Of a stretch of DNA of 14,092 nt, positions 694-12,965 are shown piece by piece. The DNA is taken from the NCBI GenBank assembly GCA_030613045.1, contig JAUWMS010000011.1, positions 1 through 14,092 on the forward strand, read 5' to 3'. The number at the start of each line of letters is the position of its first letter. Position 1 is the first letter of the stretch. Position numbers and translations under genes: made by a program. The stretch comes from Candidatus Latescibacterota bacterium (GTDB lineage Bacteria > Latescibacterota > 4484-107). Under the pieces are notes generated by a model. The model did no database searches, had not been told where the DNA came from, and saw only the letters and a list, made by a program, of their open reading frames with translations.

Positions 694-698
694 GATGG

Positions 699-726
699 CA
701 CCGCAGAGACGCGGAGGACGCAGAGC
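699..726 (+). repeat. GCAGAG-type interspersed repeat, copy 1
   Basis: CACCGCAGAG at 699-708 is followed by degenerate GCGGAG and GCAGAG cores at 8-9 base steps. It begins 5 bases after the araB stop with its CACCGC tip pointing at the gene. Related copies lie at 832-861 (inverted), 5717-5748 (inverted) and 7830-7857, with a weak one at 11532-11558. Confidence 0.7.
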
Positions 727-732
727 ACAATG

Positions 733-788
733 CGTAAAACGTAAAACGTAAAACGTGAAAGGGAAAGCCGTCAGCGTTCAGCAGTCAG
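733..788 (+). repeat. Tandem 7-bp repeat array A (8 units, mixed unit types)
   Basis: Three CGTAAAA units (733-753) and CGTGAAA (754-760) are followed in the same 7-base phase by GGGAAAG, CCGTCAG, CGTTCAG and CAGTCAG (761-788). The array therefore joins two unit families without losing register. Period-7 arrays are known as STRR in heterocystous cyanobacteria; whether these are related is unknown. No reading frame or hairpin explains it. Confidence 0.75.
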
Positions 789-831
789 TTTCCTTCTCCT
801 CCGCCTCTAAGGTTGATAGCTTTTTAAGGGG

Positions 832-861
832 TTCTCTGCGCTCTTTGCGCCTTTGCGGTGA
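832..861 (-). repeat. GCAAAG-type interspersed repeat, copy 2 (inverted)
   Basis: TTCTCTGCGCTCTTTGCG at 832-849 continues to CTTTGCGGTG ending at 860. This is the inverse of the copies at 699 and 7830. Its GCGGTG tip (855-860) points at the ATG of the yggS remnant 16 bases downstream. With copy 1 it forms an inverted pair bracketing heptad array A. Confidence 0.7.
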
Positions 862-876
862 TAAGAGGTGGTTGCG

Positions 877-1088
877 ATGAATCAGAGGAAGATCGAGGAA
901 GCCATTGCCCGCATTCGGGCGACGCTTCCGGAGGGCGTGCTTTTGGTCGCATCGCGGCGGCGGGGATTCCCAACGTTCAAATGCGCACCCTCTCCATGGG
1001 CATGAGCAACAGCTACAAAGTGGCCATCGAGGAGGGAGCCAACCTCGTGCGCATTGGCACCAAACTTTTTGGTCCGAGAATAACTTGA
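877..1088 (+). pseudogene. YggS/PROSC-family PLP-binding protein, internally deleted remnant
   Basis: The family (about 225-235 residues) is a cytoplasmic single-domain PLP carrier involved in PLP homeostasis. The ATG at 877, preceded by AGAGGTGG, opens 25 residues that match the family N-terminus and end in GVLLVA, just where the family continues with VSK and the PLP-binding lysine. The sequence then jumps to the family C-terminus in another reading frame: IAAAGIPNVQMRTLSMGMSN, then EEGANLVRIGTKLFGPR, stopping at TGA 1086-1088. Roughly 480 bases and the PLP lysine are missing, and the join near 945-955 changes frame, so no functional protein is expected. What remains at both ends is well conserved, which suggests a recent deletion or an assembly collapse. 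Confidence 0.85.
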
Positions 1089-1134
1089 TCGTATAGGAAT
1101 TTCCATTTTTTGTCGATGACGCAGATGAACGTTT

Positions 1135-1188
1135 TGGAGTGCGATGACTCCTGTCATCGCATGCGAAATCGGGAGATTTCGCACTCCA
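1135..1188. repeat. Perfect three-way-junction palindrome
   Basis: The outer stem TGGAG (1135-1139) pairs with CTCCA (1184-1188). Arm 1 is TGCGATGAC (1140-1148) with GTCATCGCA (1153-1161) around a TCCT loop. Arm 2 is TGCGAAATC (1162-1170) with GATTTCGCA (1175-1183) around a GGGA loop. All three stems are perfect and abut with no unpaired base at the junction. It lies between the yggS remnant and the Gfo/Idh/MocA gene and has no terminator-like T-tract. Either DNA strand could fold this way. I see no second copy in the window. Confidence 0.85.
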
Positions 1189-1320
1189 TAGCAGAAGCCC
1201 GCCCGAAGAGCGCTAAGTGCAGGCTCTGTTTTGTCACTGCGTAGCGGTTTTCAGGCGGCGAACTCTTACAACGGAAACCCGCACACCAAACGCAGGACTC
1301 ACACGGGAAGGGACGACCTT

Positions 1321-2364
1321 ATGGCAAAGATCGGTGTAGGCGTGATCGGAAGCGGCGGCATTGCGCGGGCCGCGCATCTGCCGGGATATGCGGCGCTCAA
1401 AGACGAGGTGGAGATCATAGCGTGCTGCGACCTGGACGAGAAGGCGGCCAGGGAGGCGGCGGAGAAATTCGGAGCGAAGAAGGTCTTCAAGGATTATCGC
1501 GACATGCTGGCCCTGAAGAACATTCAGGCCGTGAGTGTGTGCACCCCGAATTTTATGCACAAGACGCCCACCATTGCGGCGCTTAAGGCGGGCAAGCACG
1601 TGCTGTGCGAAAAGCCGATCGCCATGAACGCCACGGAGGGCGCCGCGATGTGCCGTACCGCGAAAGAGACCGGCATGAAGCTGATGGTGGGACTGAACAA
1701 CCGGTTTCGCTCGGACGTGCAGGCGTTGAAGCGGCAGATAGACGCGGAGAAATTCGGAGAGATCTATTACGCCCGCGCCCAGGCGCTTCGACGCCGCGGC
1801 ATCCCCGGCTGGGGCGTATTCGGCGATAAGGAGAAGCAGGGCGGCGGCCCGCTGGTGGACATCGGCGTGCATGCGCTCGATCTCACCTGGTATCTGATGG
1901 GCATGCCCAAACCCATAGCGGCCTCCGGGAAGACGTACACGAAGTTCGGTACGCGCGACGGCGTGGTGGGACTGATGGGGCAATGGGATCCGAAGACCTT
2001 CACCGTGGAGGACTTTGCGGTGGGATTCATCCGCTTCGACAACGGCGCGACCGCGATCGTGGAATCCAGCTTCTGCGCCAACATCGGCAAAGATCTCTTT
2101 ACCACCGCCCTCTTCGGCACCTCCGGCGGCGGGCAGCTTAGTCCGATCCAGATCTTCACGGAGGAAAACGGGACTCTCTTCGACGTGACCCCCGTACACC
2201 TCCCGGAGGTGAAAACCCATCATCGGGAGATCGAGCTCTTCATCGAAGCCATCCGCAACGACACCGAAGTCCCCGTTCCGGGCGAACAGGCGCTCGAAGT
2301 CATGAAAATGTTGGACGCCATCTACGAGTCGTCGGAGCGGGATCGGGAAGTGGAGATTCGGTAG
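1321..2364 (+). CDS. Gfo/Idh/MocA-family NAD(P)-dependent oxidoreductase
   Basis: This is a 347-residue protein of the usual family length. ATG 1321 is chosen because AAGGGA (1308-1313) sits 7 bases upstream and the Rossmann motif starts at residue 5. The N-terminal nucleotide-binding fold has GVIGSGGIA (7-15), then GKHVLCEKPIA (91-101) with the family EKP motif; its lysine is the usual active-site residue. The C-terminal substrate domain holds GGGPLVDIGVHALD (174-187), matching the DxGxH signature with Asp180 and His184. Family members oxidise sugars, inositols or sugar derivatives, or reduce the keto forms. The substrate cannot be read here. The araB end upstream and the zinc dehydrogenase downstream suggest carbohydrate catabolism. 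It is probably cytoplasmic, as no signal peptide is seen. Confidence 0.92.
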   Translation: MAKIGVGVIGSGGIARAAHLPGYAALKDEVEIIACCDLDEKAAREAAEKFGAKKVFKDYRDMLALKNIQAVSVCTPNFMHKTPTIAALKAGKHVLCEKPIAMNATEGAAMCRTAKETGMKLMVGLNNRFRSDVQALKRQIDAEKFGEIYYARAQALRRRGIPGWGVFGDKEKQGGGPLVDIGVHALDLTWYLMGMPKPIAASGKTYTKFGTRDGVVGLMGQWDPKTFTVEDFAVGFIRFDNGATAIVESSFCANIGKDLFTTALFGTSGGGQLSPIQIFTEENGTLFDVTPVHLPEVKTHHREIELFIEAIRNDTEVPVPGEQALEVMKMLDAIYESSERDREVEIR

Positions 2365-2403
2365 GAATAGGATTTCTTTTCGGGGAAGCCTTTTCCAATA
2401 AAA

Positions 2404-2473
2404 CGTAAAGCGTGAAACGTGAAATGTGAAGCGTGAAACGTGAAACGTAAAGTGTGAAACGTGAAACGTAAGC
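2404..2473 (+). repeat. Tandem 7-bp repeat array B (10 units)
   Basis: Ten contiguous heptads run as CGTAAAG, CGTGAAA x2, TGTGAAG, CGTGAAA x2, CGTAAAG, TGTGAAA, CGTGAAA, CGTAAGC. This is the cleanest and longest array of the window. It lies 39 bases after the Gfo/Idh/MocA stop. Two further heptads of another type, GCACCAA and TCACCAA (2495-2508), keep the same phase. Confidence 0.9.
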
Positions 2474-2558
2474 GCACGAATTCCAAATTACGGCGCACCA
2501 ATCACCAAACGCTAGGTTTTTCGTGCCTCTGTGGTGCATGAGGACGGAGGATCCCAAT

Positions 2559-3578
2559 ATGCTCGAAGCCGTCATGGTACAGCCGGGTCAAATCGAGTTC
2601 AACGAAGTGCCCAAACCAAGCGTGGAGAAAGACCACGTGCTGATAGAGGTCAAGGCGTGCGGCGTGTGCGGCTCGGATCTGCACGTTTATCACGGGAAGC
2701 ATCCCTTTACCTCGTATCCGGTGATTCAGGGGCACGAGTTCGCGGGCGTAGTGGATGCCGTGGGCTCGGAGGTCGAGGGCATCCGGCCGGGCCGGAAGGT
2801 GACCGTGGAGCCCTTCTTGGTCTGTGGGCGATGCTATCCATGCCGACACGGACGAACCAACATCTGCGACGAGTTGAAGGTCATGGGATTTCAGGCGCCG
2901 GGCTGTCACCGAAATTTCTTCTCCGCTCCGGCGGACAACGTGATCCCCATCCCGGAGAAGCTGTCCTTTGAGGCGGGCGCGATGGTGGAACCGCTCGCCG
3001 TCGGAGTGCACGCGGTCCGTCGCAGCGGTCTGAAAGCGGGTATGAAGGTTCTCGTTCTCGGCGCGGGTCCCATCGGCCTTTTGACCATGCAGGCCGCCAA
3101 AGCATCGGGCGCGTCCGAGGCGCTCATCGTGGATCGGGTGGACTTCCGCCTCGAAGTAGCCCGGAAGCTCGGCGCGGATCACACGGTCAACGGAGACCGG
3201 GAAGCCGTGGCCGAGGGCATCCGACGAGCCTTCGGAGCGGACGGAGCGGATCTGATCTTCGAGTGCGTGGGCCTCGAAGTCACCGTAGAAACAGCCGTGC
3301 AGGTGGCCCGGAAGGGCACGCGGATCATGGTGGTGGGCGTCGTCGGAGGGCGTCCCCGAATCTCCATCGGCCTCCTCCAGGATCGGGAATTGGAACTGGT
3401 GGGCACGCTGATGTATATGCGACCCGATTTCGAGCAGGCCATCGCGTGGATCGCCGAAGGCTCGGTCAGGCCCACCGAACTTATCACCGCCCGATTCCCG
3501 TTCGAGGAACTGCCCCGGGCCTATCGGGAAGCGGACGAACACGCCGCGCGAAATCTGAAGGTGATGGTCCTTTTTTGA
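2559..3578 (+). CDS. Zinc-dependent medium-chain dehydrogenase (sorbitol/threonine dehydrogenase-like)
   Basis: This 339-residue protein starts at ATG 2559 with GGAGG at 2546-2550, a clear start. The GroES-like catalytic domain comes first. Cys37 (in ACGVCGSD), His59 and Glu60 (GHEFAG) are the expected catalytic-zinc ligands, and Glu144 (MVEPLA) is the extra glutamate seen in sorbitol-dehydrogenase relatives. Four cysteines at 89, 92, 95 and 103 form the structural-zinc lobe. The Rossmann domain has GAGPIG at 168-173, and an acidic residue after the second strand (VDR, Asp192) favours NAD over NADP. The reaction would be reversible oxidation of a secondary alcohol of a polyol, sugar or amino acid; the exact substrate is unknown. 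Placed after a Gfo/Idh/MocA enzyme, it fits sugar or polyol catabolism. The PAP2-like gene starts 13 bases after its stop, so co-transcription is likely. Confidence 0.93.
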   Translation: MLEAVMVQPGQIEFNEVPKPSVEKDHVLIEVKACGVCGSDLHVYHGKHPFTSYPVIQGHEFAGVVDAVGSEVEGIRPGRKVTVEPFLVCGRCYPCRHGRTNICDELKVMGFQAPGCHRNFFSAPADNVIPIPEKLSFEAGAMVEPLAVGVHAVRRSGLKAGMKVLVLGAGPIGLLTMQAAKASGASEALIVDRVDFRLEVARKLGADHTVNGDREAVAEGIRRAFGADGADLIFECVGLEVTVETAVQVARKGTRIMVVGVVGGRPRISIGLLQDRELELVGTLMYMRPDFEQAIAWIAEGSVRPTELITARFPFEELPRAYREADEHAARNLKVMVLF

Positions 3579-3579
3579 C

Positions 3580-3584
3580 AGGAG
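3580..3584 (+). promoter_or_regulatory. Ribosome binding site supporting a TTG start
   Basis: AGGAG ends 7 bases before the TTG at 3592. No ATG or GTG near the 5' end has such a site, so the TTG is taken as the start of the PAP2-like protein. Confidence 0.65.
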
Positions 3585-3591
3585 ACACCCC

Positions 3592-4194
3592 TTGAGCCGG
3601 AACGCCGAATTTCGGATAACGGACAACGCGGCGCGTTTCTTCGCGCACGCCCTCAACCCCGCCTTTACCACCTGTTTTGCGATTTTTCTGCTGTCGCTGT
3701 CGGCGGCGGAACGTTGGAGGGACTGTGCGTCGTGGATTGTCCTGAACGGCGTCTGCACGATTCTCCTGCCGTCTTCCTGCTTCCTCTGGTTAAAGCGGAG
3801 AGGAAAAATCTCGGGATTATACATCCCGGATCGGACCCAGCGAACCGGCCCCTTCCTGTGGCTGCTCTTTTTCTACACACTGGGAATCTCGCTCCTTCGA
3901 TGGATCAACGTGCCATCCTCCGTGATCGCCGCTCTGATCGTACACACCGTCAACGTAGCCCTCATAACGGGCGTGACGCGTTTCTATAAAATGAGCTTCC
4001 ACGTCATGAGCGCAGCCACGTCGGGAGGTATTCTGCTCTATTTCTTCGGAGTGCCGGCCCTGCTGAGCCTTGTGCTTATCGCAGCGCTCTCGTGGTCGCG
4101 CGTGCATACCCGTGCGCACAGTCTATCTCAGGTTCTCGGAGGCGGTTTCGTGGGATTTTTCTCCGCGCTCCTGCAATTGGAAGCGTTCTTTTGA
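3592..4194 (+). CDS. PAP2-family (phosphatidic acid phosphatase-like) membrane protein
   Basis: This 200-residue integral membrane protein starts at TTG 3592, supported by AGGAG at 3580-3584. Hydrophobic segments lie near residues 22-38, 47-66, 87-103, 109-128, 141-165 and 182-198. PAP2-like motifs are recognisable: IPDRTQRTGPF (78-88) in place of the KX6RP element, KMSFH (133-137) with the likely nucleophile His137, and SRVHTRAHSLSQ (169-180) for SRX5HX3D. The final aspartate is Gln180. As far as I recall, a Gln followed by V here marks a subgroup of short PAP2 proteins in FCB-type bacteria, so it need not mean loss of function. The family removes phosphate from lipid or isoprenoid phosphates at the membrane; the substrate here is unknown. 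It follows the zinc dehydrogenase by 13 bases. Confidence 0.75.
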   Translation: MSRNAEFRITDNAARFFAHALNPAFTTCFAIFLLSLSAAERWRDCASWIVLNGVCTILLPSSCFLWLKRRGKISGLYIPDRTQRTGPFLWLLFFYTLGISLLRWINVPSSVIAALIVHTVNVALITGVTRFYKMSFHVMSAATSGGILLYFFGVPALLSLVLIAALSWSRVHTRAHSLSQVLGGGFVGFFSALLQLEAFF

Positions 4195-4211
4195 GTTTCA
4201 CGCCGTGCCCC

Positions 4212-4326
4212 CCTTCAACTCCGCTCAGGGCAAGATTCGATTCCTCCGGGTACAGTTTGGATGATCCAGGAAAATTCTTCCGAACCGTGAACGGAACAGC
4301 ATGGAGTTCACGGAAAAGGTTTTCCG
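4212..4326 (+). other. Intergenic hairpins and a CTCAGG-type repeat upstream of the methyltransferase
   Basis: CCTTCAACTCCGCTCAGGG (4212-4230) resembles a short repeat I know from many environmental genomes, but only this copy is visible here. CCGTGAAC (4285-4292) pairs with GTTCACGG (4306-4313) across 13 bases. CGGAAAA (4311-4317) can pair with TTTTCCG (4320-4326), overlapping the previous arm. The two stems are mutually exclusive at 4311-4313. No T-tract follows at once, so a terminator role is unclear. Confidence 0.4.
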
Positions 4327-4375
4327 GTTCCCGCGTTACTCGTCCCGTTTTACGTTTAGCTGAGAAAGCAGCCCC

Positions 4376-5278
4376 ATGAACTTCCAACCCACGAAGTGCC
4401 TGATATGCGATTCTGAGAAACACGAGCCTTACCTTCAGGCCCCCAATAGATTCAATACACAGGAGAAATTTCAACTTGTGCGTTGCGCTCGGTGCGGTTT
4501 CGTCTATCTATCTCCACGCCCCACTCAGGAATTTATGGGCCGGTATTACGAAGACGAACGCTATCACCCGCATCAGCGAAACGGGGTCTCGCGGACCGAT
4601 CGCCTTTACCGAGTGCTTCGCGGCTGGAACTTACGAAACAAACGGCGGCTCATTGAACAATACTGCACCCAAGGCTCTATTCTTGACGTGGGCTGCGGCA
4701 CCGGAGAATTTCTCACCGAAATGCAGGGAGCGGGCTGGCAGGTGCTGGGGATCGAACCGGCGTCTCAGGCACGGGATTTTGTGGAAAAAGGCGGCTTACG
4801 GGTATTAGACCGCATCGAAAAGTGCCATGATCGGTTTGACGCGATCACCCTATGGCACGTGTTGGAGCACATCCATGAGGTTCATGATCTACTCCATCAA
4901 CTTGGTAAGCTCCTCTCTCCGGGAGGACGGATTTTTATAGCCGCTCCCAATCTCGAAAGCTTCGATGCCAAACGCTACGGTCCCTACTGGATTGCATTCG
5001 ACGCGCCTCGCCACCTCTATCACTTTCGACCTCAGGATATGCGGCTGTTTCTTCATACGCATGGTCTGAAAGTGATCCGCCAAAGTGCTTTATTTCTCGA
5101 CCCATGGTACAATTCCCTTTTCTCCTGCCGCCTGAAGTCTGAAATCAAAGGAAAGAAGATCGGAGCCTATGGATTCATAACATGCGGATTCGTCAGTTCT
5201 TGCGCCTCCCTCAAGGGAAGGTTCAATCGCAATTCCAGCTCCAGCCCGATCTACATCGCCTGTCACGGTGATCGCTGA
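4376..5278 (+). CDS. Class I SAM-dependent methyltransferase with N-terminal zinc ribbon
   Basis: This 300-residue protein starts at ATG 4376; the upstream AGAAAG is only a weak ribosome site. A treble-clef-like zinc ribbon comes first, with Cys8, Cys11, Cys37 and Cys40 (CLIC and CARC) and the family-typical GFVYLSPRP (41-49). The Rossmann methyltransferase core follows: motif I ILDVGCGTGEFL (102-113), acidic strand-2 end GIEP (125-128), DAITLWHVLEHIHE (155-168) and GGRIFIAAPN. The stretch ending APRHLYHF is also common in this family. Relatives often sit in polysaccharide, lipid or nucleotide-sugar gene clusters and methylate sugars or small acceptors; the acceptor cannot be named here. It stands alone between a 181-base gap and the cupin gene, 48 bases downstream. 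The sequence looks less GC-rich than its neighbours (by eye, not computed). Confidence 0.9.
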   Translation: MNFQPTKCLICDSEKHEPYLQAPNRFNTQEKFQLVRCARCGFVYLSPRPTQEFMGRYYEDERYHPHQRNGVSRTDRLYRVLRGWNLRNKRRLIEQYCTQGSILDVGCGTGEFLTEMQGAGWQVLGIEPASQARDFVEKGGLRVLDRIEKCHDRFDAITLWHVLEHIHEVHDLLHQLGKLLSPGGRIFIAAPNLESFDAKRYGPYWIAFDAPRHLYHFRPQDMRLFLHTHGLKVIRQSALFLDPWYNSLFSCRLKSEIKGKKIGAYGFITCGFVSSCASLKGRFNRNSSSSPIYIACHGDR

Positions 5279-5326
5279 TTGGTGGAAAAATAATGAGAGC
5301 AAAACCGTCCATAGAAAGGGGGAAAC

Positions 5327-5659
5327 ATGCTGCTCAAAAGCACCCAAAACGTAGAGGCCGTCGCTGTCGAAGAAGACGCGAAAAATACGAAAGTCCGATG
5401 GCTGATCTCGGATCAGGACGGAGCCCCGAATTTCGCGATGCGTCTGTTTGAAATCGGGCCTCACGGAGCCACACCGCTTCACACCCACGCCTGGGAACAC
5501 GAAGTCTTCGTATTAGGAGGCGAGGGAGTCGTCGTGAGCACGGAAGGCGACAGGAAAATCGGCCCGGGGGACGCGGTATTCATCCCCGGAGAGGAACGTC
5601 ATCAATTCCGAAGCATGGGAGACGGTGTGCTGAAAGTGTTGTGCATGATTCCGATATAG
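5327..5659 (+). CDS. Small single-domain cupin protein
   Basis: This 110-residue protein starts at ATG 5327 after AAAGGGGGA (about 5316-5324), a good start site. It has one cupin barrel. Motif 1 has His52 and His54 (LHTHAWEHE) and Glu59, and motif 2 is GPGDAVFIPGEERH (79-92) with His92. These would be the three-histidine, one-glutamate metal site. Single-domain cupins of this size include metal-binding sensors, isomerases and dioxygenase-like enzymes, and sequence alone does not select one. It is cytoplasmic, with no signal or membrane segment. A heptad array begins 1 base after its TAG stop, so it probably ends a transcription unit. The nearest plus-strand gene upstream is the methyltransferase, 48 bases away. 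Confidence 0.88.
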   Translation: MLLKSTQNVEAVAVEEDAKNTKVRWLISDQDGAPNFAMRLFEIGPHGATPLHTHAWEHEVFVLGGEGVVVSTEGDRKIGPGDAVFIPGEERHQFRSMGDGVLKVLCMIPI

Positions 5660-5660
5660 G

Positions 5661-5702
5661 CGTGAAACGTGAAGCGTGAAACGTGAAACGTGAAACGTAA
5701 GG
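5661..5702 (+). repeat. Tandem 7-bp repeat array C (6 units)
   Basis: The units are CGTGAAA, CGTGAAG, CGTGAAA x3 and CGTAAGG, starting 1 base after the cupin stop. It has the same unit family and orientation as arrays A and B, and is followed 14 bases later by an inverted GCAGAG-type repeat. Confidence 0.9.
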
Positions 5703-5716
5703 CAGGGGTTGGGGGA

Positions 5717-5748
5717 CGCTCCGCGGCCTCCGCGCGCTCTGCGGTGAG
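5717..5748 (-). repeat. GCAGAG-type interspersed repeat, copy 3 (inverted)
   Basis: CGCTCCGCGGCCTCCGCG (5717-5734) continues to GCTCTGCGGTGAG ending at 5748. The GCGGTG tip (5741-5746) lies 8 bases before the Nudix ATG, so GGTGAG of the repeat may serve as its ribosome binding site; no other good site is seen. Confidence 0.65.
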
Positions 5749-5754
5749 AAAACC

Positions 5755-6201
5755 ATGGCAACGTTCAGGAAATGCCCGCACTGCGGGGAAAAATTGGAGC
5801 AATACCGAAATCCCGTCCCGACAGTGGATGTGATCATCGAACTGGATGGAAGCGGCATTGTGCTGATCCAGCGAAAAAATCCGCCTTATGGCTGGGCGCT
5901 TCCGGGAGGCTTCGTGGACTACGGAGAAAGTTTGGAGGAGGCCGCCGTCCGGGAGGCGAAGGAGGAAACTTCGTTAGGCGTCACGCTGGTGAAACAATTC
6001 CACACCTATTCGGATCCGAAGCGGGATCCACGCCAGCACACCATCACCACGGTGTATATGGCCAGGGCCACAGGAGAGCCGAAGGCCGCGGACGATGCGG
6101 CCGGGATCGGAATCTTCCGAAAAGACAACTTGCCGGAGGAGATGGCCTTCGATCACCGCGAAATCCTGCGCGACTATTTCATTTCTCGGAGGGCCACATG
6201 A
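5755..6201 (+). CDS. Nudix hydrolase with short N-terminal CxxC
   Basis: This 148-residue protein starts at ATG 5755. The Nudix box runs from Gly52 to Leu74 ([20 protein letters not shown] inside it) and matches GX5EX7REUXEEXXU, with Glu67, Glu70 and Glu71 as metal ligands. A CPHC pair (7-10) resembles half of the zinc ribbon seen in NudC-like enzymes, but a second cysteine pair is absent. Family members cleave nucleoside diphosphates linked to another group, such as ADP-ribose, NADH, nucleotide sugars or oxidised nucleotides. The substrate is not clear. Its TGA overlaps the ATG of the acetyltransferase (ATGA at 6198-6201), so translation of the two is likely coupled. The only ribosome-site candidate, GGTGAG, lies in the repeat at 5717-5748. 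Confidence 0.92.
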
Positions 6202-6668
6202 TCAGAAGGTATCGGGAGGCGGACCGGGCGATCCTGATGGAAATCACCATCACCTGCTTTCCAAAAGTATCCATAGATCGGAACATCGAGGACCGTTTCG
6301 GAACGGTCGGCGGGAAGGACTGGACGTGGCGCAAAAAACGCGAGATCGAGGCGGATATCTCGGCGTGCCCGGAAGGAATCCTCGTCGCGGAGATGGATGG
6401 AAACGTCGTAGGATATATCACGTGCCGGCTGGATCTAGAGAGCAGGGTCGGACATATTTCTAACATGGCTGTCCTGCCCGCCTGTCAGGGACGCGGACTG
6501 GGCAAACAACTGATGCAGGCCGCATTAGACAACTTCAGACAAAAGGGCATGGAACTGGCCCGAATCGAAACATTAGCGCAAAACGAAGTGGGAGCCAGAT
6601 TTTATCCGAAAGCGGGCTTTGTGGAAGTCGCCCGTCAGATTCACTACGCCATGCCGCTGAGTTCATAG
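6198..6668 (+). CDS. GNAT-family N-acetyltransferase
   Basis: This 156-residue protein starts at ATG 6198, which overlaps the Nudix stop by 4 bases. CGGAGGG (6187-6193) inside the Nudix gene is its ribosome site. The acetyl-CoA pyrophosphate loop is QGRGLG (97-102), preceded by the strand [15 protein letters not shown], and the C-terminal half has the usual [12 protein letters not shown] motif (133-144). The N-terminus [16 protein letters not shown] is typical of small-molecule or protein N-alpha acetyltransferases related to RimI. The acceptor is unknown. Coupling to the Nudix hydrolase may mean that both act on a common nucleotide- or toxin-related substrate, but this is only positional inference. 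No membrane or signal segment is seen. Confidence 0.92.
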
Positions 6669-6670
6669 TG

Positions 6671-6783
6671 AGGCAAAGCCGCAACCAAAACCCCAAAGCA
6701 ATGGGACACGGATAGCACGGATTTACACGGATCAAATACAAAAACCTTGTCAAAAAAACAAGATTTCGCAGGCTTATAGTACA
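6671..6783 (+). repeat. Diverged intergenic repeat with CACGGAT cores, upstream of the carbamoyltransferase
   Basis: Three CACGGAT cores (within 6703-6732) stand 9-10 bases apart. Then AACCTTGTCAAAAAAA (6744-6758), a TTTCG and a TAGTACAG follow. The stretch from AGCCGCAACC on has a diverged copy at about 11620-11715, which shares AACCTTGTCAAAAAAA and a TAGCACAG. Another CACGGAT copy lies at 11475-11505. CTTGT and ACAAG (6746-6762) could form a weak AT-rich hairpin. Confidence 0.6.
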
Positions 6784-6838
6784 GTAAGGCGCGAAAGTAC
6801 CGCCTTCAAATATTCTCTCTCAATCAAGGAGGTCTCCC

Positions 6839-7822
6839 ATGACACAGTCCCTAACAGGAACTCCGGCTCCGGAACTCAGCGATCAACTCCGCGGAAAACA
6901 ACTTCCGCACATCGGACTTCTTTCCAGGGAAGAACTGGAAGAAATCATCCACCTCGGCGAATGGTTCCGGGACAACCGCTACGACCCCACCTACTCCGAC
7001 CTCCTGCGAGGCCGGGTTCAAGTGCTCCTTTTCGTCTACGAGTCCACCCGCACCCGCATGGGCTTCGAGGCCGCCATGGCCCAACTCGGCGGTTCCAACG
7101 TGTACCTCGCAGTCAAGGACACCCAGATGGGACGCGGCGAATCCATCGGCGACACCGCCCGCGCGCTCGATCAGTACATTGACGCCTTTGCCGGAAGGCT
7201 CTGGAAACAGGAAGACATCGAAGCCGTGTGCGAAAATATGACCGTCCCGGTTCTCAATGCCTGCACTCCGCTCGACCATTCGACGCACGTCATCGGAGAG
7301 CTTATGGCGATCAAACAGGCGAAAGGAAACTTGGAGGGCCTCAACTTGGTGTACACCGGTATGGCGCGCGGCATCCTCCACTCGTTTATCCGCGTCTGTC
7401 CGGTGCTCGACATCAACCTGGTTCTCGCAGTTCCAGCCTCGTATGCGGACACCATCAATAAAGCGGTCCTGAGCGAGGGGGAGGCAAAAGCAGCACAGGC
7501 GGGGACGCGCCTCGAAATCTGCACAGACCTCAAAAAAGCGGTACAAGACGCCGACTTTATACAGGCAAGCACGCTCATGCGCAGCATGCTCGCCGGAGAA
7601 CAATCCCCCGAAGAAAAAGCGGTGGATGTGCCCCGTTGGACGGTGACCGACGAAGTCCTCGACTGCGCAAAACCGGATGTGCTTTACAGCCACTCCGGTC
7701 CCGCGCACCGCGGCGTCTGCGCCACCGACGAAGTGCTGGACGGCCCGCGCTCGATTGTCCGCGAGGAAGCCCGCAACGCCATCTTCTCCAAAAAAGCCCT
7801 GCTTGCGCTAATGGTCAAATAA
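6839..7822 (+). CDS. Aspartate/ornithine carbamoyltransferase-family protein, atypical active site
   Basis: This 327-residue protein starts at ATG 6839, with AAGGAGGT at 6826-6833 the strongest ribosome site in the window. The N-terminal carbamoyl-phosphate domain has ESTRTRMGFEAAM (68-80), matching the STRTR phosphate-binding motif, then MGRGESIGDTARAL (97-110) as in ornithine carbamoyltransferases. The family HPxQ motif appears as HSTH (147-150). In the C-terminal domain the HPxP motif of aspartate carbamoyltransferases appears as HSGP (285-288), followed by RGV and DGPRSIVREEARNAI, which is aspartate-type. Both usual prolines are serine and the Gln of HPxQ is His. The length is normal. The acceptor amino acid cannot be assigned; it could be a specialised carbamoyltransferase of secondary or nitrogen metabolism. 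No arginine- or pyrimidine-pathway gene is adjacent. Family assignment is firm, function is not. Confidence 0.85.
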   Translation: MTQSLTGTPAPELSDQLRGKQLPHIGLLSREELEEIIHLGEWFRDNRYDPTYSDLLRGRVQVLLFVYESTRTRMGFEAAMAQLGGSNVYLAVKDTQMGRGESIGDTARALDQYIDAFAGRLWKQEDIEAVCENMTVPVLNACTPLDHSTHVIGELMAIKQAKGNLEGLNLVYTGMARGILHSFIRVCPVLDINLVLAVPASYADTINKAVLSEGEAKAAQAGTRLEICTDLKKAVQDADFIQASTLMRSMLAGEQSPEEKAVDVPRWTVTDEVLDCAKPDVLYSHSGPAHRGVCATDEVLDGPRSIVREEARNAIFSKKALLALMVK

Positions 7823-7829
7823 AAGCGTT

Positions 7830-7857
7830 CACCGCAAAGACGCAAAGAACGCAAAGG
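7830..7857 (+). repeat. GCAAAG-type interspersed repeat, copy 4
   Basis: CACCGCAAAGACGCAAAG (7830-7847) and a third GCAAAG follow at steps of 8 and 9 bases. It starts 7 bases after the carbamoyltransferase stop, with the CACCGC tip facing the gene, as copy 1 does at araB. Confidence 0.8.
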
Positions 7858-7864
7858 AAAGGCA

Positions 7865-7924
7865 GGTAAAGGTAGAGGTAGAGGTAAAGGTGGAGAAGAC
7901 AGCTCCTTTACCTCTACCTTTTCT
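7865..7924 (+). terminator. Hexamer repeat with long hairpin, probable terminator
   Basis: Five 6-base units (GGTAAA, GGTAGA x2, GGTAAA, GGTGGA; 7865-7894) include the left arm AGGTAGAGGTAAAGG (7876-7890). It pairs perfectly over 15 bases with CCTTTACCTCTACCT (7905-7919) across a 14-base loop, and the right arm runs into TTTTCT. It lies 43 bases after the carbamoyltransferase stop, so it may end that transcript. It could instead be only a repeat inversion. Confidence 0.5.
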
Positions 7925-7954
7925 CTCGTTCTCACGCTCCCGCGTTGGAACGAG
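7925..7954. repeat. CGTTCCCACGC-type palindrome, copy 1 (degenerate)
   Basis: CTCGTTCTCACGC (7925-7937) pairs with GCGTTGGAACGAG (7942-7954) with two mismatches and a TCCC loop. Better copies lie at 11728-11753 and 12099-12123. Confidence 0.65.
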
Positions 7955-7994
7955 GACTGATAACGAACACCCCAACGCTTACCGGAGGATCATA

Positions 7995-8825
7995 ATGGAT
8001 CGCCTCATTTTCGGAGTAACCGGTGTGCCGTCGGATGCCAAACGTCCGACGAGTCAGGCGGGGATCGAGCGGGTCAGGGAATTGGGGTTGGGATGTATGG
8101 AGCTGGCCTGGGTGCGAGGCGTGAAATTGGGGGAGCGAGCCGCGCTTGGGATCGAAGCGACGGCCAGGGAGAACGGCATTCGGCTCAGCGCCCACGGCGC
8201 GTACTACATCAATCTGAATGCGGACGATCCGGCGATTGGGTTGCGCAGTCGGGATCGTATCCTGAAAGGCGCCCGGATGGGGAAGCTTTGCGGGATATCC
8301 GGGCTCGTGTTTCACGCGGCGTCCTATATGAAGCGGAATCCGAAGGAAGTCTATCCGGTGGAGAAGGAGGCGCTGGAGGAGATCGGGGAGACGCTCAGGC
8401 AGGAGGGGAACCCGGTTACGCTCCGACCGGAAACCACGGGAAAACCCTCGTACTTTGGCGACCTGGGCGAATTGCTTCGGCTCTCCTCGGAGTTGGAAGG
8501 CGTGGCTCCATGTATAGACTTCGCGCATCTGCACGCGCGGAGCGGGGGTGCCTACAACTCTTACGGAGCCTTCGCCTCCGTGTTGGACCAGATCGGCGCC
8601 GAACTCGGTCGGGAAGCGCTGGACGATATGCACATCCATGTGGCGGGCATCCAATATACGGCCAAAGGGGAGCAAAAACATTTGATGCTCGACGACTCCG
8701 ATCTGAAGTACCGGGAATTGCTCAGGGCGCTGGCCAAGTTCGAGGTGAAGGGACTCGTGATCTGTGAAAGCCCGAATCCGGTGCCGGATGCCCTGCTTTT
8801 GCAGCGGGAGTACGCGGCACTGTAA
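7995..8825 (+). CDS. Endonuclease IV (Nfo)-family TIM-barrel protein
   Basis: This 276-residue protein starts at ATG 7995 after GGAGG (7984-7988). The open frame continues upstream without a supported start. Endonuclease IV incises DNA at abasic sites in base-excision repair through a three-zinc site. Counterparts of its ligands are visible: His67 (SAHGAYYINL), His107 (VFHAAS), Glu146 (RPETTG), Asp175 and His178 (CIDFAH), His213 or His215 (MHIHVAG), His229 (EQKH) and Glu258 (ICESP). The Asp of the enterobacterial Asp-Arg-His pair is Gln227. The form with KGEQKH and a C-terminal ICESP resembles archaeal-type relatives from memory. Abasic-site nuclease is the best guess; a sugar-isomerase-like relative is the alternative. 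It is a single gene flanked by repeats. Confidence 0.82.
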   Translation: MDRLIFGVTGVPSDAKRPTSQAGIERVRELGLGCMELAWVRGVKLGERAALGIEATARENGIRLSAHGAYYINLNADDPAIGLRSRDRILKGARMGKLCGISGLVFHAASYMKRNPKEVYPVEKEALEEIGETLRQEGNPVTLRPETTGKPSYFGDLGELLRLSSELEGVAPCIDFAHLHARSGGAYNSYGAFASVLDQIGAELGREALDDMHIHVAGIQYTAKGEQKHLMLDDSDLKYRELLRALAKFEVKGLVICESPNPVPDALLLQREYAAL

Positions 8826-8856
8826 GAATTTGTTTTTTCAGGGAAGCAGACTTGTG

Positions 8857-8956
8857 AATCATGCAGAGTAGATGTCCCGTCAGGGACAGGATATTTGTAG
8901 CATTCGAAATAGCCGAAAATTTTCCCCAAGTCCCGTGAGGGACGAAATATACACGG
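8857..8956 (+). repeat. GTCCC/GGGAC two-hairpin module, copy 1
   Basis: Hairpin 1 is TGTCCC-GTCA-GGGACA (8873-8888) and hairpin 2 is GTCCC-GTGA-GGGAC (8930-8943), with starts 57 bases apart. The copy at 11833-11932 matches it over about 100 bases, including the intervening GATATTTGTAGCATT. A third, inverted, more diverged copy is at 11982-12054. Confidence 0.85.
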
Positions 8957-8965
8957 CTTTTTTTT
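8911..8965 (+). terminator. Possible terminator using the second hairpin of the module
   Basis: AGCCG (8911-8915) pairs with CGGCT (8954-8958), enclosing the GTCCC hairpin, and eight T residues follow (8958-8965). It lies about 85 bases after the endonuclease IV-family stop. The outer stem is short and the enclosed loop long, so this is tentative. Confidence 0.35.
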
Positions 8966-8983
8966 CTGATCCGCGAGGCAAAG

Positions 8984-9418
8984 ATGACCCCGGATGTCGA
9001 AATCGGACAACGAATCAAGCAACTCCTCAGCGCGATCAAACCCGGCGTTTTGATCTGGCTTTTGGCCCTGTCTATCAATCTCCTCATCAGGAAGCCGCTG
9101 GAACAAAGCAACGCCTCCGCCCTGGGAGGATGGATCACGCTGATGGTCTGCCTCGTGGCGATCCGCCTGTTTTCCGCCCGCGCACTGCGGGATCACGAAG
9201 CCCCAAGCTTCAAAGCGGGACTCCGTCTCGGACTCCGATTTCTGATCCTCGTCGCGGGTTTAGACGCCCTGTTTTTGGGATGGGCCTCAAAACAAGGCCT
9301 GCACTACCTCGCCGCAGGCCAGCCGGTACTCGGACTCCTCTACTTAGAATGCCTCCTCATCCCGGCGTTGGGCGGCGTCGTGGAGGAAAGAAGAAGACTG
9401 GAAGAAGCGGAGGAATAG
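8984..9418 (+). CDS. Small membrane protein of unknown function
   Basis: This 144-residue protein starts at ATG 8984 after GCGAGG (about 8972-8977). I do not recognise the family. Four hydrophobic stretches lie near residues 19-36, 47-63, 83-101 and 110-128, so it should be an inner-membrane protein with four helices. There is a charged N-terminus and an acidic, arginine-rich tail, GGVVEERRRLEEAEE. No conserved catalytic-looking residue stands out. Its TAG stop lies 49 bases from the stop of the convergent ABC-F gene, and the gap is filled by a heptad array. A T-tract and the two-hairpin module lie directly upstream, so its promoter, if it has its own, must lie in or after that repeat. Confidence 0.7.
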   Translation: MTPDVEIGQRIKQLLSAIKPGVLIWLLALSINLLIRKPLEQSNASALGGWITLMVCLVAIRLFSARALRDHEAPSFKAGLRLGLRFLILVAGLDALFLGWASKQGLHYLAAGQPVLGLLYLECLLIPALGGVVEERRRLEEAEE

Positions 9419-9421
9419 TTT

Positions 9422-9477
9422 GGGTTCAGGGGTCAGGGCTCGGGGGCCAGGAGCCAGGAGTCACGTTTCACGCTTCC
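9422..9477 (+). repeat. Tandem 7-bp repeat array D (8 units) in a convergent gene gap
   Basis: The units are GGGTTCA, GGGGTCA, GGGCTCG, GGGGCCA, GGAGCCA, GGAGTCA, CGTTTCA and CGCTTCC, all in one phase. The last two are inverse-complement units of the CGTGAAA type. The TGA stop of the ABC-F gene (9468-9470) lies inside the CGTTTCA unit, and the array covers all but 3 bases of the gap between the two stops. Confidence 0.85.
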
Positions 9478-11360
9478 AAGTGCAGTTGCTCCCACTCCTC
9501 AAACAAAGCCTCCAAGCGCTTCTCCACTTTCTCCCGCTCCCGAAGCAGCCCATCGAGCCGATTCCAATCCGACGCGGTCTCTTCCTCCGAAAGCTCGGTC
9601 TCGATGCGAGCTATGGTTCCCTCCGATTCGTGAATCGCGCGCTCGATTTCGGAGAGCCGTCGCTCCGTGCGGGCACGGGATCGCTCCGCCTCCCGCTTCT
9701 TTTGAAATGCCCGGCGGCGCCCTTCTTTCTCCGCATCCTCGCTGGAGGCTTCCCCGCCCAGCGCTCTCTCCTCCCGCCGCTTCCGCTCGAAATGGGCGTA
9801 CCCCCCTTCGTAGAGCCGACTTTTTCCCATGCCCATAAAAAGAATCCGATTCGCGAGCCGATTCAAAAAATAGCGGTCGTGAGATACCGCAAGAATCGTC
9901 CCCTCGTATTGCATCAAAGCCGCCTCCAAGGCCATCCGGGACGGGATGTCGAGATGATTGGTAGGCTCGTCCAGAATCAACAGGTTGGCTTTGGAAAGGA
10001 TCAGCTTGCACAGAGATACCCGGCTTTGCTCGCCGCCGCTGAGGCTCCCGATGCGTTTGAACACGTCGTCCCCGGAGAACAGAAACGCCCCGAGGAAGGT
10101 GCGCATCTCGCCCTCCGGACGCCGCGGATCCATCGCCCATACCTCCTCTAAGACCGAATGTTTCAGATTCAGATCCAGCCGTTCCTGATCGTAATAGCCC
10201 ACGTGTATCTGGCTGCCGAACCGAATCGTTCCCGCATCCGGGGTCTCGTGGTCCAGGAGCATCCTGAGCAGCGTGGTTTTCCCCGTGCCGTTTGGCCCTA
10301 TGATCCCCACGCGCTCTCCCCGGCGCACCGCCCAGGTCAGATTTTCAAACAAGGTCCGATCTTCGTAGCGCTTCGTCAGTCCCTCACACATCAGCACATC
10401 GTTCCCGCCTCTTCGTTCCGGCGTAAAATGCAGACGCACGTTCCGTTCCCCCTTGAGGGGGGCGAGTCGTTCCGTCTTCGCCAGCCGTTTCCGGCGACTC
10501 TGAGCCTGCTTGGTCTTCTGGCCCGCTATGTTTCGCTGGATGAAGTCCTCGGGTCGGGCGATCTCCGCCTGTTGTTCCTCATAGAGTTTCCTCTGCTGCG
10601 CCTGCCGCCGCGCCCGCTCCGGCTCATACTCGGAATACGTTCCTTTATAGTGCGTCAAGCCGCGATCCTCAAGCTCCACAATTTCGGAGACGACCCGATC
10701 CAGAAAATAGCGGTCGTGGGAGACCACCACGACACTCCCGGGATATTTCGTTAGAAAATCCTCCAGCCACTCCGTAGCCCCGATGTCGAGGTGATTCGTC
10801 GGCTCGTCCAGCAACAACAGATCCGGTCTTCCGCACAATAACTTTGCCAGCGCCACCCGGGTTTTCTCCCCCCCGCTGAGCACCGCCACCGGCCTGGCCT
10901 GGCTCTGCTCATCCAATCCCAAACCCGAAAGGACCGACTTTGTTTCCCTCTCGATGCCGTACCCTCCCTGCGCCTCATACTGCTCCAGCAAGGCCCCATA
11001 TTGGTGTAACAGGGTTTCATTATGCCGGTCGGACGCCATCTCCGACTCCATACGCGCCAACTCCGTCTGCATCGCAATCAGGAATTGAAAGGCGGTTAAG
11101 GTCTCCTGCAGGACCGTCCGCGTTCCATCCAAGACCGGCTCCTGAGGGAGATAGCCCATCCGCACGCCCCGCTTCCGAATCACCGTCCCCCTATCCGGCG
11201 TCAGTGCCTCGTTCATCAACCGGAACAGCGTGGTTTTCCCGCACCCATTCGGCCCGATCAACCCGATGCGATCGCCCTCCTCCACCTGCCACGATACGTC
11301 GTCCAACACCACATGCGCCCCGTAAGATTTGGATACCTTTTCCAGTCGAACCAACGTCAT
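9468..11360 (-). CDS. ABC-F family ATPase (translation-associated, Uup/YdiF type)
   Basis: This 630-residue protein has two ABC domains and no membrane segment. The start at 11360 is chosen because MTLVRLEKVSKSYG is the family N-terminus and AAAGGGG lies upstream; the open frame 20 codons further up has no support. Domain 1 has Walker A GPNGCGKT (36-43), signature LSGGE (161-165) and Walker B LLLLDEP (181-187). Domain 2 has GPNGTGKT (355-362), LSGGE (440-444) and LILDEP (462-467). The charged linker at about 243-315 is the part that reaches P-site tRNA in this family. The charged C-terminus (about 545-628) should form a coiled coil as in Uup and YdiF. ABC-F proteins act at the ribosome E-site, relieving stalling or protecting from antibiotics. 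Nothing here shows a resistance-type specialisation. Confidence 0.94.
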   Translation of the reverse strand: MTLVRLEKVSKSYGAHVVLDDVSWQVEEGDRIGLIGPNGCGKTTLFRLMNEALTPDRGTVIRKRGVRMGYLPQEPVLDGTRTVLQETLTAFQFLIAMQTELARMESEMASDRHNETLLHQYGALLEQYEAQGGYGIERETKSVLSGLGLDEQSQARPVAVLSGGEKTRVALAKLLCGRPDLLLLDEPTNHLDIGATEWLEDFLTKYPGSVVVVSHDRYFLDRVVSEIVELEDRGLTHYKGTYSEYEPERARRQAQQRKLYEEQQAEIARPEDFIQRNIAGQKTKQAQSRRKRLAKTERLAPLKGERNVRLHFTPERRGGNDVLMCEGLTKRYEDRTLFENLTWAVRRGERVGIIGPNGTGKTTLLRMLLDHETPDAGTIRFGSQIHVGYYDQERLDLNLKHSVLEEVWAMDPRRPEGEMRTFLGAFLFSGDDVFKRIGSLSGGEQSRVSLCKLILSKANLLILDEPTNHLDIPSRMALEAALMQYEGTILAVSHDRYFLNRLANRILFMGMGKSRLYEGGYAHFERKRREERALGGEASSEDAEKEGRRRAFQKKREAERSRARTERRLSEIERAIHESEGTIARIETELSEEETASDWNRLDGLLREREKVEKRLEALFEEWEQLHLEA

Positions 11361-11417
11361 AATGCCCCTTTGAGGAGTGTCATAAGCCAAAATTCGAACG
11401 TCAGAACTAAACCTTAC

Positions 11418-11505
11418 CACGGAATTTCACGGAAGCACACGGAGAAGAAAAACGGCAAACAAAGCAAAAGCATTGGGACACGGATTGCACGGATTTCACG
11501 GATCA
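11418..11505 (+). repeat. CACGGA-core periodic repeats
   Basis: CCACGGAATTTCACGGAAG (11418-11436) with a third CACGGA, then GGGACACGGATTGCACGGAT (11475-11494) with TTTCACGGATCAAA, carry cores 9-11 bases apart. The second block matches 6703-6735 closely, including the flanking AAAGCA and GGATCAAA. Confidence 0.65.
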
Positions 11506-11531
11506 AACATAGAAATACGCCGAAGAATCAG

Positions 11532-11558
11532 TCGCGAAGGCACAAAGGCACAAAGAAA
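11532..11558 (+). repeat. Weak GCAAAG-type repeat, copy 5
   Basis: TCGCGAAGGCACAAAGGCAC and a following AAAGAAAA have the spacing of the GCAAAG family but lack the CACCGC tip and lie far from any gene end. Confidence 0.35.
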
Positions 11559-11619
11559 ATCACTTCGCAGATCCGTCAAGGGGAAGGCTTACCCAAAAAG
11601 GCAGGTAGTAGATCAGCGG

Positions 11620-11715
11620 AGCCGCAACCCCCGAACATAACCGCGGATTACGGGGATTTGGCGGATTCCAAAACAAGAACCTTGTCAAAAAAAGAGTTTC
11701 GAGGGATTGTAGCAC
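11620..11715 (+). repeat. Second copy of the 6671-6783 element
   Basis: It shares AGCCGCAACC near its start, AACCTTGTCAAAAAAA near 11679-11694, then TTTCG, GG and TAGCACAG in the same order as at 6671-6783. The CACGGAT cores are degenerate here (GCGGATTACGGGGATTTGG). Confidence 0.55.
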
Positions 11716-11727
11716 AGAGATATTCTA

Positions 11728-11753
11728 CGTTCCCACGCAGGAGCGTGGGAACG
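11728..11753. repeat. CGTTCCCACGC palindrome, copy 2 (perfect)
   Basis: CGTTCCCACGC (11728-11738) and GCGTGGGAACG (11743-11753) form a perfect 11-base stem with an AGGA loop. The flanks TTCTA on the left and AGATGG on the right are shared with copy 3 in the same orientation. Confidence 0.9.
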
Positions 11754-11832
11754 AGATGGAAGGAGCGTTTTAAAACAGGAACTCAAAACACATGGTTGCA
11801 CAAGAGCAAAGAAGGATTTTGGGAAAATTTGC

Positions 11833-11932
11833 GAATCGTGCAGAGATGTCCCGTCAGGGACAGGATATTTGTAGCATTGGGAAATAAGCCGATAGCCTCC
11901 AAGTCCCGTGAGGGACGAAATAGTCACGGAAA
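11833..11932 (+). repeat. GTCCC/GGGAC two-hairpin module, copy 2
   Basis: TGTCCC-GTCA-GGGACA (11848-11863) and GTCCC-GTGA-GGGAC (11903-11916) have starts 55 bases apart. CAGGATATTTGTAGCATT and CAAGTCCCGTGAGGGACG are identical to the copy at 8857-8956; the centre between the hairpins differs. Confidence 0.88.
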
Positions 11933-11981
11933 ACACATTATGACGAAAGGCGCATTTGGAAGGATATTCGATAAATATGCC

Positions 11982-12054
11982 GTCCCTACAGGACTGGGAA
12001 ATGTTTTTTTTGGATTGTTTTGTTTTGCTATAACTATTTTGTCCCTAACGGGAC
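11982..12054 (-). repeat. GTCCC/GGGAC two-hairpin module, copy 3 (inverted, diverged)
   Basis: GTCCCTACAGGAC (11982-11994) corresponds to the inverse of hairpin 2 of the other copies, and TGTCCCTAACGGGACA (12040-12055) to the inverse of hairpin 1. Hairpin starts are 59 bases apart. It forms an inverted pair with copy 2. Confidence 0.7.
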
Positions 12055-12098
12055 AGAACCTTATCTGTTATATTAGCGGGAAAGACTCAGGATTTCTA

Positions 12099-12123
12099 CG
12101 TTCCCACCGAGGAGTTGGGAACG
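12099..12123. repeat. CGTTCCCACGC-type palindrome, copy 3
   Basis: CGTTCCCA (12099-12106) pairs with TGGGAACG (12116-12123), with a less paired centre. The flanks TTCTA and AGATGG match copy 2 in direct orientation, 371 bases away. Confidence 0.8.
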
Positions 12124-12130
12124 AGATGGC

Positions 12131-12165
12131 AGTCACCAATCACCGATCACCAGTCACCAATCACC
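12131..12165 (+). repeat. Tandem 7-bp repeat array E (5 units)
   Basis: The units are AGTCACC, AATCACC, GATCACC, AGTCACC and AATCACC without gaps. It has the same period as arrays A-D but a different unit. It begins 7 bases after the palindrome at 12099-12123. Confidence 0.88.
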
Positions 12166-12181
12166 AAATAATAGCTTGCCT

Positions 12182-12222
12182 CCAAAAAAAAGAGGGGACA
12201 ACCTGCATCCCCTCTTTCTTTT
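12182..12222 (-). terminator. Strong intrinsic terminator, able to act on both strands
   Basis: AAAGAGGGGA (12189-12198) pairs perfectly with TCCCCTCTTT (12208-12217) around a 9-base loop. On the minus strand the stem runs into eight T residues, and on the plus strand into TTTCTTTT. It lies 28 bases beyond the final TAG (12246-12248) of the cohesin-like gene on the minus strand, marking the original end of that gene. Confidence 0.9.
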
Positions 12223-12245
12223 GTCGCTTGGTATGTGTCCATGTG

Positions 12246-12818: not shown

Positions 12819-12853
12819 GATTAGGCTCCTCTCTGAGAACAATGTTGCTCCAT

Positions 12854-12916
12854 AAAGGAAAAGCCACCTGCAAACGATCCAGCAGAGCCTCGCACGCGCG
12901 GTGGCTTTATCCTTTC
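12854..12916 (-). promoter_or_regulatory. Leader hairpin with competing partner, possible attenuator
   Basis: Plus-strand AAAGGA+AAAGCCACC (12854-12868) pairs with GGTGGCTTT (12901-12909) and TCCTTT (12911-12916), with one bulge and a 32-base loop. Read on the minus strand it lies 36 bases before the cohesin-like start. The central segment (12901-12907) can instead pair with 12934-12940, inside the neighbouring terminator hairpin, so two folds compete. Confidence 0.45.
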
Positions 12917-12917
12917 A

Positions 12918-12960
12918 AAGAGGGAGCCTCCCAGCCACCAGGGGCAACGGGAAGCTCCCC
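12918..12960 (-). terminator. Terminator-like hairpin after the dockerin-like gene
   Basis: On the minus strand, GGGAGCTTCCC (12960-12950) pairs with GGGAGGCTCCC (12933-12923) over 11 bases with one G-U pair and a 16-base loop, followed by TCTTT. It begins 6 bases after the TAA stop (12966-12968). The T-tract is short, so read-through into the cohesin-like gene is possible. Confidence 0.55.
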
Positions 12961-12965
12961 GCACG

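Follow-up and report, generated by a model that had tools for sequence, protein, structure and literature searches.

Tandem arrays of seven-base units, built from many different but related words, recur in the genome of a Candidatus Latescibacterota bacterium (GTDB lineage Bacteria; Latescibacterota; 4484-107; GenBank assembly GCA_030613045.1), and five such arrays lie in the contig considered here, JAUWMS010000011.1, whose 14,092 nucleotides (positions 1 to 14,092, forward strand) we refer to as the window. In our judgment these arrays are probably heptanucleotide simple sequence repeats (SSRs), a class already known in bacteria, which change by 7-nt slippage and by point mutation and which have undergone a genus-specific burst. 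Strand slippage in replication would alter array length by whole 7-nt units (sometimes 14 or 21), point mutations copied along with the units would diversify a seed word into related words, and the arrays would survive mostly in spacers, in many cases immediately after a stop codon. A unit carrying TGA is barred from a gene read in that direction because its stops fall in all three frames of the strand; stop-free units (AATCCGA/ATTGCGG) would be able to sit, and do sit, in predicted reading frames. Slippage as the enzymatic cause is what we infer from the patterns described below, and any reason for the favoured length of seven would be inferred likewise.

Excess of period seven and its distribution

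Period-7 segments were located by scoring s[i]=s[i+7] in the window, in contigs of its source genome and at other loci. The source genome (G000, in which the window is contig C274) is a 3.14 Mb draft of 580 contigs that is 78% complete, and every seventh contig by number was sampled from it (80 contigs, 408,633 bp); segments with more than 70% match at period 1-3 were removed from the period counts. At a score of at least 14, this sample holds 57 period-7 segments; periods 5, 6, 8, 9 and 10 have 0, 3, 4, 7 and 5. The remaining periods from 4 to 30 yield 0-7 segments save 14 (27) and 21 (13), which together with 28 (7) are harmonics of 7. The first 40 contigs of this sample (204,227 bp) contain 27 period-7 segments, compared with 0 in one dinucleotide shuffle, and two stretches of Escherichia coli K-12 (100 kb) gave zero segments at every period from 4 to 30. 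The genome-wide comparison of periods that a preliminary description of the window had proposed therefore returns a large excess of 7 (57 against 0-7 for non-harmonic periods). The five arrays named in that description were all located in the window, where the scan finds exactly five period-7 segments and Tandem Repeats Finder agrees on all five places; 200 dinucleotide-preserving shuffles of the window equalled none of them, giving no period-7 segment at score 13, whereas the real arrays score 18-31.5. The excess also recurs in other phyla: across 80 array-bearing loci (540 kb), which were selected through one array word and whose seed arrays were masked for period counting, there are 130 period-7 segments against 0, 3, 27 and 13 for periods 5, 6, 8 and 9. 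Head-to-tail 7-nt units thus occur above chance and above neighbouring periods, and they are mainly intergenic (122 of 147 arrays in the census described below), as heptanucleotide SSRs are.

An excess of heptads has, in itself, been published before. As described in passages of PMC4679880 and PMC4692102, Mrazek et al. (2007) reported heptanucleotide repeats to be overrepresented in numerous bacterial genomes, with heptads the most abundant class among units of 5-11 nt in most of them, and proposed polymerase slippage, 7 nt being the stretch that contacts the polymerase. On the same subject, passages of PMC12699852 describe a subset of 6-9 bp repeats as highly enriched in prokaryotic phyla, against an average depletion of short repeats in prokaryotes. 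For the preference for exactly seven bases, the passages found offer a hypothesis only, namely polymerase contact length. What distinguishes the present case is that many related words recur in one genome.

The burst is confined to the genus among the relatives searched. Patterns of AACGTGA type (up to 3 mismatches), KTGGTGA type and AATCCGM type (up to 1) have 311, 288 and 164 matches in the source genome and 127, 101 and 85 in its sister species (G001), but never more than 9 in any one of 39 further genomes of the same class or phylum. Reversed patterns have 19, 90 and 0 matches in the source genome, the 90 not being independent, as reversed GTGGTGA is a rotation of itself. Loss of mismatch repair is unsupported as the cause of the burst, MutS_V matches being present in the source genome (none in the 60%-complete sister genome). 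Beyond the genus, named genomes contain the exact 21-mer of AACGTGA type in at least 116 stretches; among the 80 matches listed are Anaerolineae, Desulfococcaceae, Verrucomicrobia, Nitrospira, Gemmatimonadota, Latescibacterota, Omnitrophota, Betaproteobacteria and Bacteroidales.

That identical 21-mers are shared by many phyla yet nearly missing from the other searched genomes of this phylum would suit a reverse transcriptase, transposase or terminal-transferase-like activity that writes heptads from a template and carries words between phyla, and RVT_1 and Y1 transposase genes are indeed present in both genomes. We nonetheless hold such enzyme-driven copying to be highly improbable: the same enzyme families occur in array-free relatives, so that neither the reverse transcriptase nor the Y1 transposase qualifies as a private factor, the clean changes between the sister species are small unit steps, and no target-site duplications or element ends were evident in the alignments inspected, although no systematic search for them was made. 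As for possible carriage by phages, two 21-mers were found in 8 and 36 stretches of viral contigs.

A shared register among the words

The census of arrays, which excludes the window, covers the source-genome sample and 40 contigs of the sister species, the sole genome of the same genus found, and comprises 122 intergenic arrays and 25 arrays within open reading frames (ORFs). Genes were called by a simple codon-usage script without annotation, which bears on all intergenic and gene-end counts. The contigs of the sister species (40 for the census and column tests, 60 for alignment and persistence) were partly picked for array or window matches.

The preliminary description held that the arrays share only their period. 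This is not right, since the units share a TGA slot as well: written in one register, most of them read NNNVTGA (V = A, C or G), as in AACGTGA, KTGGTGA, CCTCTGA, ATTCTGA, CCCCTGA, RCAATGA, AAAATGA and others, the register being set by the consensus of each array and not by its variants. TGA is present on one strand in 88 of the 122 intergenic arrays (0.72), compared with 24% of random intergenic heptads, and in 28 of the 48 distinct intergenic units; the base preceding it is never T in 210 TGA heptads (G 140, C 48, A 22). GTG/CAC is enriched nearly as strongly (63/122, or 0.52, against 18%). In each array of the window, half or more of the heptads, read on the appropriate strand, have TGA or TAA in one common slot. 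A second class of units, AATCCGA/ATTGCGG and their rotations, is free of stops on both strands and accounts for 17 of the 25 in-ORF arrays, just 2 of which have a TGA-bearing consensus.

The words are also close to one another in sequence. A network of single substitutions joins 46 of the 48 distinct intergenic units, against a mean of 10 and a largest value of 30 in 200 random sets, or a mean of 18 and a largest value of 35 when the random sets carry an equal share of TGA. Descent of all units from one ancestor, which the preliminary description had set against its own claim, is therefore nearly reached by this measure, but the network dissolves when near-perfect arrays alone are considered, where the largest network joins 5 of 20 units against a random mean of 4 and the excess is gone. 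Common descent of the units by point mutation is compatible with these results and is not demonstrated by them. A test for TGA at the level of clusters was uninformative, as single linkage at one substitution leaves 3 clusters, 2 of them with TGA (p 0.15).

The preliminary description further reported different unit families joined in perfect 7-base phase. The window array at 9422 is indeed strictly in phase, whereas the second part of 733-788 falls below score 10 in the period-7 scan, as do the supposed foreign heptads at 2495-2508. When 152 arrays were anchored on TGA, the array at 9422 was, by the criteria applied, the one strict case (chance about 1 in 7), and joining in phase was accordingly rejected as a rule; for unrelated units the phase is arbitrary, as the second unit may be written in any rotation. 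Five pairs of neighbouring arrays on the same strand have phase offsets of 0, 0, 6, 5 and 2, with one of the zeros being a split array of a single family. Elsewhere, pairs of oppositely oriented heptad arrays at L112:4526-4593, L080:4707-4801 and L085:5338-5401 could form hairpins.

Sister-species differences and conserved columns

Alignment of the two genomes yielded 23 stretches of 45,671 columns, with orthologous stretches 80-92% identical. In orthologous spacers, clean differences between arrays amount to exactly 7 or 14 bases, among them two 7-base steps in L252/L115, one of 14 in L260/L102 and one of 7 in L273/L100. Multiples of 7 make up 6 of the 20 insertions and deletions in or beside arrays and 6 of the 121 found elsewhere (Fisher p 0.002), and substitutions number 115 in 573 array positions compared with 4960 in 44,428 elsewhere. 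Arrays also persist at their sites. Where both flanks align, 8 of 12 source-genome arrays have a counterpart heptad array at the corresponding position of the sister species (p 0.001) and, in reverse, 8 of 9 sister arrays are matched in the source genome, whereas control spacers (contigs L110-L117, picked by number) hold a heptad array at the aligned place in 4 of 31 cases. Within 23 long arrays, unit identity declines slowly with distance, from 0.82 for adjacent units to 0.75 for units five apart.

At one site the word itself differs between the two species. The array at L253:6841-6867 reads TTGGTGA/GTGGTGA, and its orthologous place in the sister species, L306:3288-3318, holds AAAATGA/AAAATGC, a clear case in which period and site are kept while the word differs; the spacer of L270/L280 may be a second. 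The proposal that period rather than sequence is conserved is borne out to the extent that the excess of 7 is large, recurs in other phyla and has this one direct example of period and site outlasting the exact word. The companion proposal, of a mechanism that copies or selects 7-base steps, finds agreement in the clean differences of 7 and 14 bases, but over all array indels 6 of 20 are multiples of 7, and the units resemble one another.

Several observations weigh against slippage and point mutation as a sufficient account. Of the 20 array indels, the other 14 have lengths that 7 does not divide, although several of them fall within degenerate arrays that align poorly. By itself slippage gives no reason why 7 should prevail over 5, 6 and 8, why the same 21-mer occurs in many phyla, or why different families occupy one place, and the frequent VTGA slot, the position behind stop codons and the identical units of remote phyla are likewise left unexplained. 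The result least explained by plain slippage is the unevenness of the columns, since neutral slippage should leave all seven equally variable. In 71 intergenic arrays 28 bp or longer (window arrays included), mismatches to each array's own consensus at positions 1-7, with TGA at 5-7, are 0.20, 0.17, 0.07, 0.03, 0.05, 0.12 and 0.08 (chi-square p about 1e-20, the cells not being independent). The same profile is seen in 82 AACGTGA arrays of other phyla (0.24, 0.20, 0.12, 0.05, 0.05, 0.10, 0.06), whereas 32 arrays of other words from those phyla have no such pattern, their TGA columns not being the conserved ones.

Column-specific conservation of this kind would be expected if the arrays were selected binding sites, in which a core (VTGA or CGT/CTG) recurring every 7 nt is recognized by a factor that binds DNA or RNA while the first positions drift, so that site and period are kept and the rest of the unit is replaceable. 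The excess of TGA per array and per distinct unit fits such a role, as does the one place occupied by two families, both of which carry TCA on the same strand; passages of PMC4679880 (MacGregor, 2015) propose a similar role for the TAACTGA repeats. We nevertheless regard binding arrays as unlikely. In an unanchored test of the most conserved trimer, TGA/TCA scored 6.2 against 6.1 expected in 61 arrays of this genus, and TGA was consequently dropped as the most conserved trimer; ACG/CGT (13.3 against 4.7) and CAG/CTG (5.8 against 1.6) were prominent instead, from which it follows that the part held is centred on positions 3-5 and not on TGA. Among 111 arrays of other phyla, TGA/TCA reached 15.3 against 10.4, with ACG/CGT prominent too. 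The near-equal enrichment of GTG/CAC, the existence of units without VTGA (AATCCGA, ATTGCGG), the unconserved TGA columns in the 32 arrays of other words and the phase of neighbouring arrays, which is not generally kept, all count against such a reader. The broader idea of one functional periodic element, a core in the NNNVTGA register repeated every 7 nt and kept at the 3' ends of genes by a factor counting 7-nt steps, with word families swappable between sister species and having arisen or travelled in many phyla, appears quite unlikely to us, its probability lowered because the unanchored test does not single out TGA. With hundreds of array matches, many words, a sister species and a shared register, the genus should allow slippage, mutation bias and selection to be separated. 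A selected core would point to a novel reader of 7-nt steps, whereas a mutational one would be a measure of the sequence preference of slippage.

Gene ends, precedents and the arrays of the window

Arrays with stop-bearing units cluster at gene ends. When the upstream gene lies on the TGA strand, 35 of 58 such arrays fall within -25..+10 nt of its stop codon, compared with 5 of 37 where the stop is on the other strand and 5 of 91 for starts (3/54 on the TGA strand, 2/37 on the other); arrays wholly behind the stop (0..10 nt) number 17 of 58 against 3 of 37 (p 0.02). As 7 equals 1 modulo 3, three TGA heptads place a stop in each frame, and arrays behind genes might on that ground serve as all-frame translational backstops or as ladders for termination and reinitiation. 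The placement agrees with this, as do a weak excess of arrays co-directed with both neighbouring genes (49 against 30, p 0.04, in the larger set) and the variation of position 6, which is mainly G to A and retains the stop (49/57). Proximity to stops is, however, partly automatic, because an ORF that enters such an array must end there. Co-direction shrank from 34:11 in the first sample (the first 40 source contigs, the window and 20 sister contigs) to 49:30, and is absent in other phyla (35 against 32 and 17 against 11), which led us to demote stop-codon orientation as the chief explanation. The usual variant in CTGA families, moreover, is TGG, a non-stop, and TAA and TAG, which would serve equally, are clearly rarer than TGA in the slot. 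A role as stop elements is, on balance, very unlikely.

The STRR repeats of heterocystous cyanobacteria have a period of 7 and the unit CCCCA[A/G]T. The present arrays have the period in common with them and differ in unit sequence, the STRR unit not being among the listed units of the 147 arrays. The view that these repeats are the only precedent does not hold, as passages of PMC4679880 and PMC4692102 describe both the heptad excess of Mrazek et al. (2007) and studies of TAACTGA and GGGAATC heptads. Compared with the heptanucleotide long SSRs of prokaryotes, as those passages present them, the arrays here comprise many families within one genome in one TGA register, with steps of 7 or 14 and one place that holds different families in sister species. 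The TAACTGA repeats of Beggiatoaceae, some Cyanobacteria and Bacteroidetes (PMC4679880, in the passages describing them) resemble ours in being short arrays of a TGA heptad scattered patchily across unrelated phyla, but consist of one dominant word with related words rare, and lie mostly just upstream of starts. Here there are many words, and they lie behind stop codons: TAACTGA is the commonest heptad in none of the 122 intergenic and 25 in-ORF arrays, and on the TGA strand the 3 of 54 near starts contrast with the 35 of 58 near stops. The GGGAATC and GGGGA(C/T)T heptads of Xanthomonas and Nostoc (Rehm, 2015; PMC4692102, in part) likewise occur as inverted pairs but form G-quadruplexes, whereas most words here have TGA and no GGG run; the main units AACGTGA, KTGGTGA, CCTCTGA and AATCCGA lack a GGG or GGGG run, which is found in a few arrays of CCCCTGA, TCCCTGA and GGGGGGA types. 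A full-text literature search with five exact array words matched two papers, both unrelated by title, and searches on heptamer repeats led to the precedents cited above.

Among the loci of other phyla, Desulfococcaceae bacterium HSG8 carries CAACTGA-type arrays at L139:4230-4258 and L140:3786-3814, 4 nt before a predicted start codon; these are one base off TAACTGA and are positioned like the Beggiatoaceae repeats. An inverted CAACTGA array at L140:3505-3531 shares the spacer of the latter and lies 3 nt behind a stop.

The five window arrays, as delimited by the scan, illustrate the range of positions. The first, AACGTAA/AACGTGA at 733-760 (+ strand, with TRA on that strand), begins 39 nt past the stop of an FGGY kinase fragment ending at 693, and is followed at 761-788 by a sub-threshold continuation which, read directly, consists of three TCA-spaced heptads (CTGA type on the - strand). 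AACGTGA/AGCGTGA/AACGTAA at 2399-2469 (+) lies 34 nt past the stop of a GFO/IDH/MocA oxidoreductase gene; period 21 matches 90% of it against 79% for period 7, which suggests multi-unit duplication. AACGTGA/AGCGTGA at 5661-5698 (+) is 1 nt from the stop codon of a cupin gene (5327-5659). The mixed array at 9422-9476 (-), AGCGTGA AACGTGA CTCCTGG CTCCTGG CCCCCGA GCCCTGA CCCCTGA, has TGA in 4 of its 7 heptads and TGG or CGA in the remainder; it overlaps a - strand gene (9468-11360; two ABC ATPase domains) at that gene's 3' end and starts 3 nt past the stop of a + strand ORF (8984-9418). TTGGTGA/CTGGTGA/TCGGTGA at 12130-12167 (-) lies 216 nt from the 3' end of a - strand ORF (12384-12818). Rfam gave no match within the window at gathering thresholds.

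Other repeats accompany the heptads. Period 9 is the runner-up to 7 in the period spectrum, harmonics aside, and short period-9 repeats of CACGGATTT, CGCAAAGAA and CGCAGAGGA types, matched in the sister genome, lie at 699-725, 833-865, 6664-6736, 7828-7883 and 11447-11508. An array of the hexad AGGTAG followed by its approximate reverse complement (7864-7916) forms a possible hairpin in the spacer before 7995. Palindromic elements resembling GTTCCCACGC/GCGTGGGAAC occur at 11726-11757 and 12098-12125, the first of which is matched in the sister species, where the dispersed repeats at 11764-12058 and 8868-8958 also have many copies. On its contig C43, partial copies of a dispersed repeat (1044-1154 and 1577-1666) flank a Y1_Tnp gene (1225-1569) with one in-frame TAG, an arrangement suggestive of what we take to be REP-like elements moved by a RAYT-type transposase. 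Finally, 877-1088 appears to be the decayed remnant of a gene, presumably of the PLP-binding YggS type.

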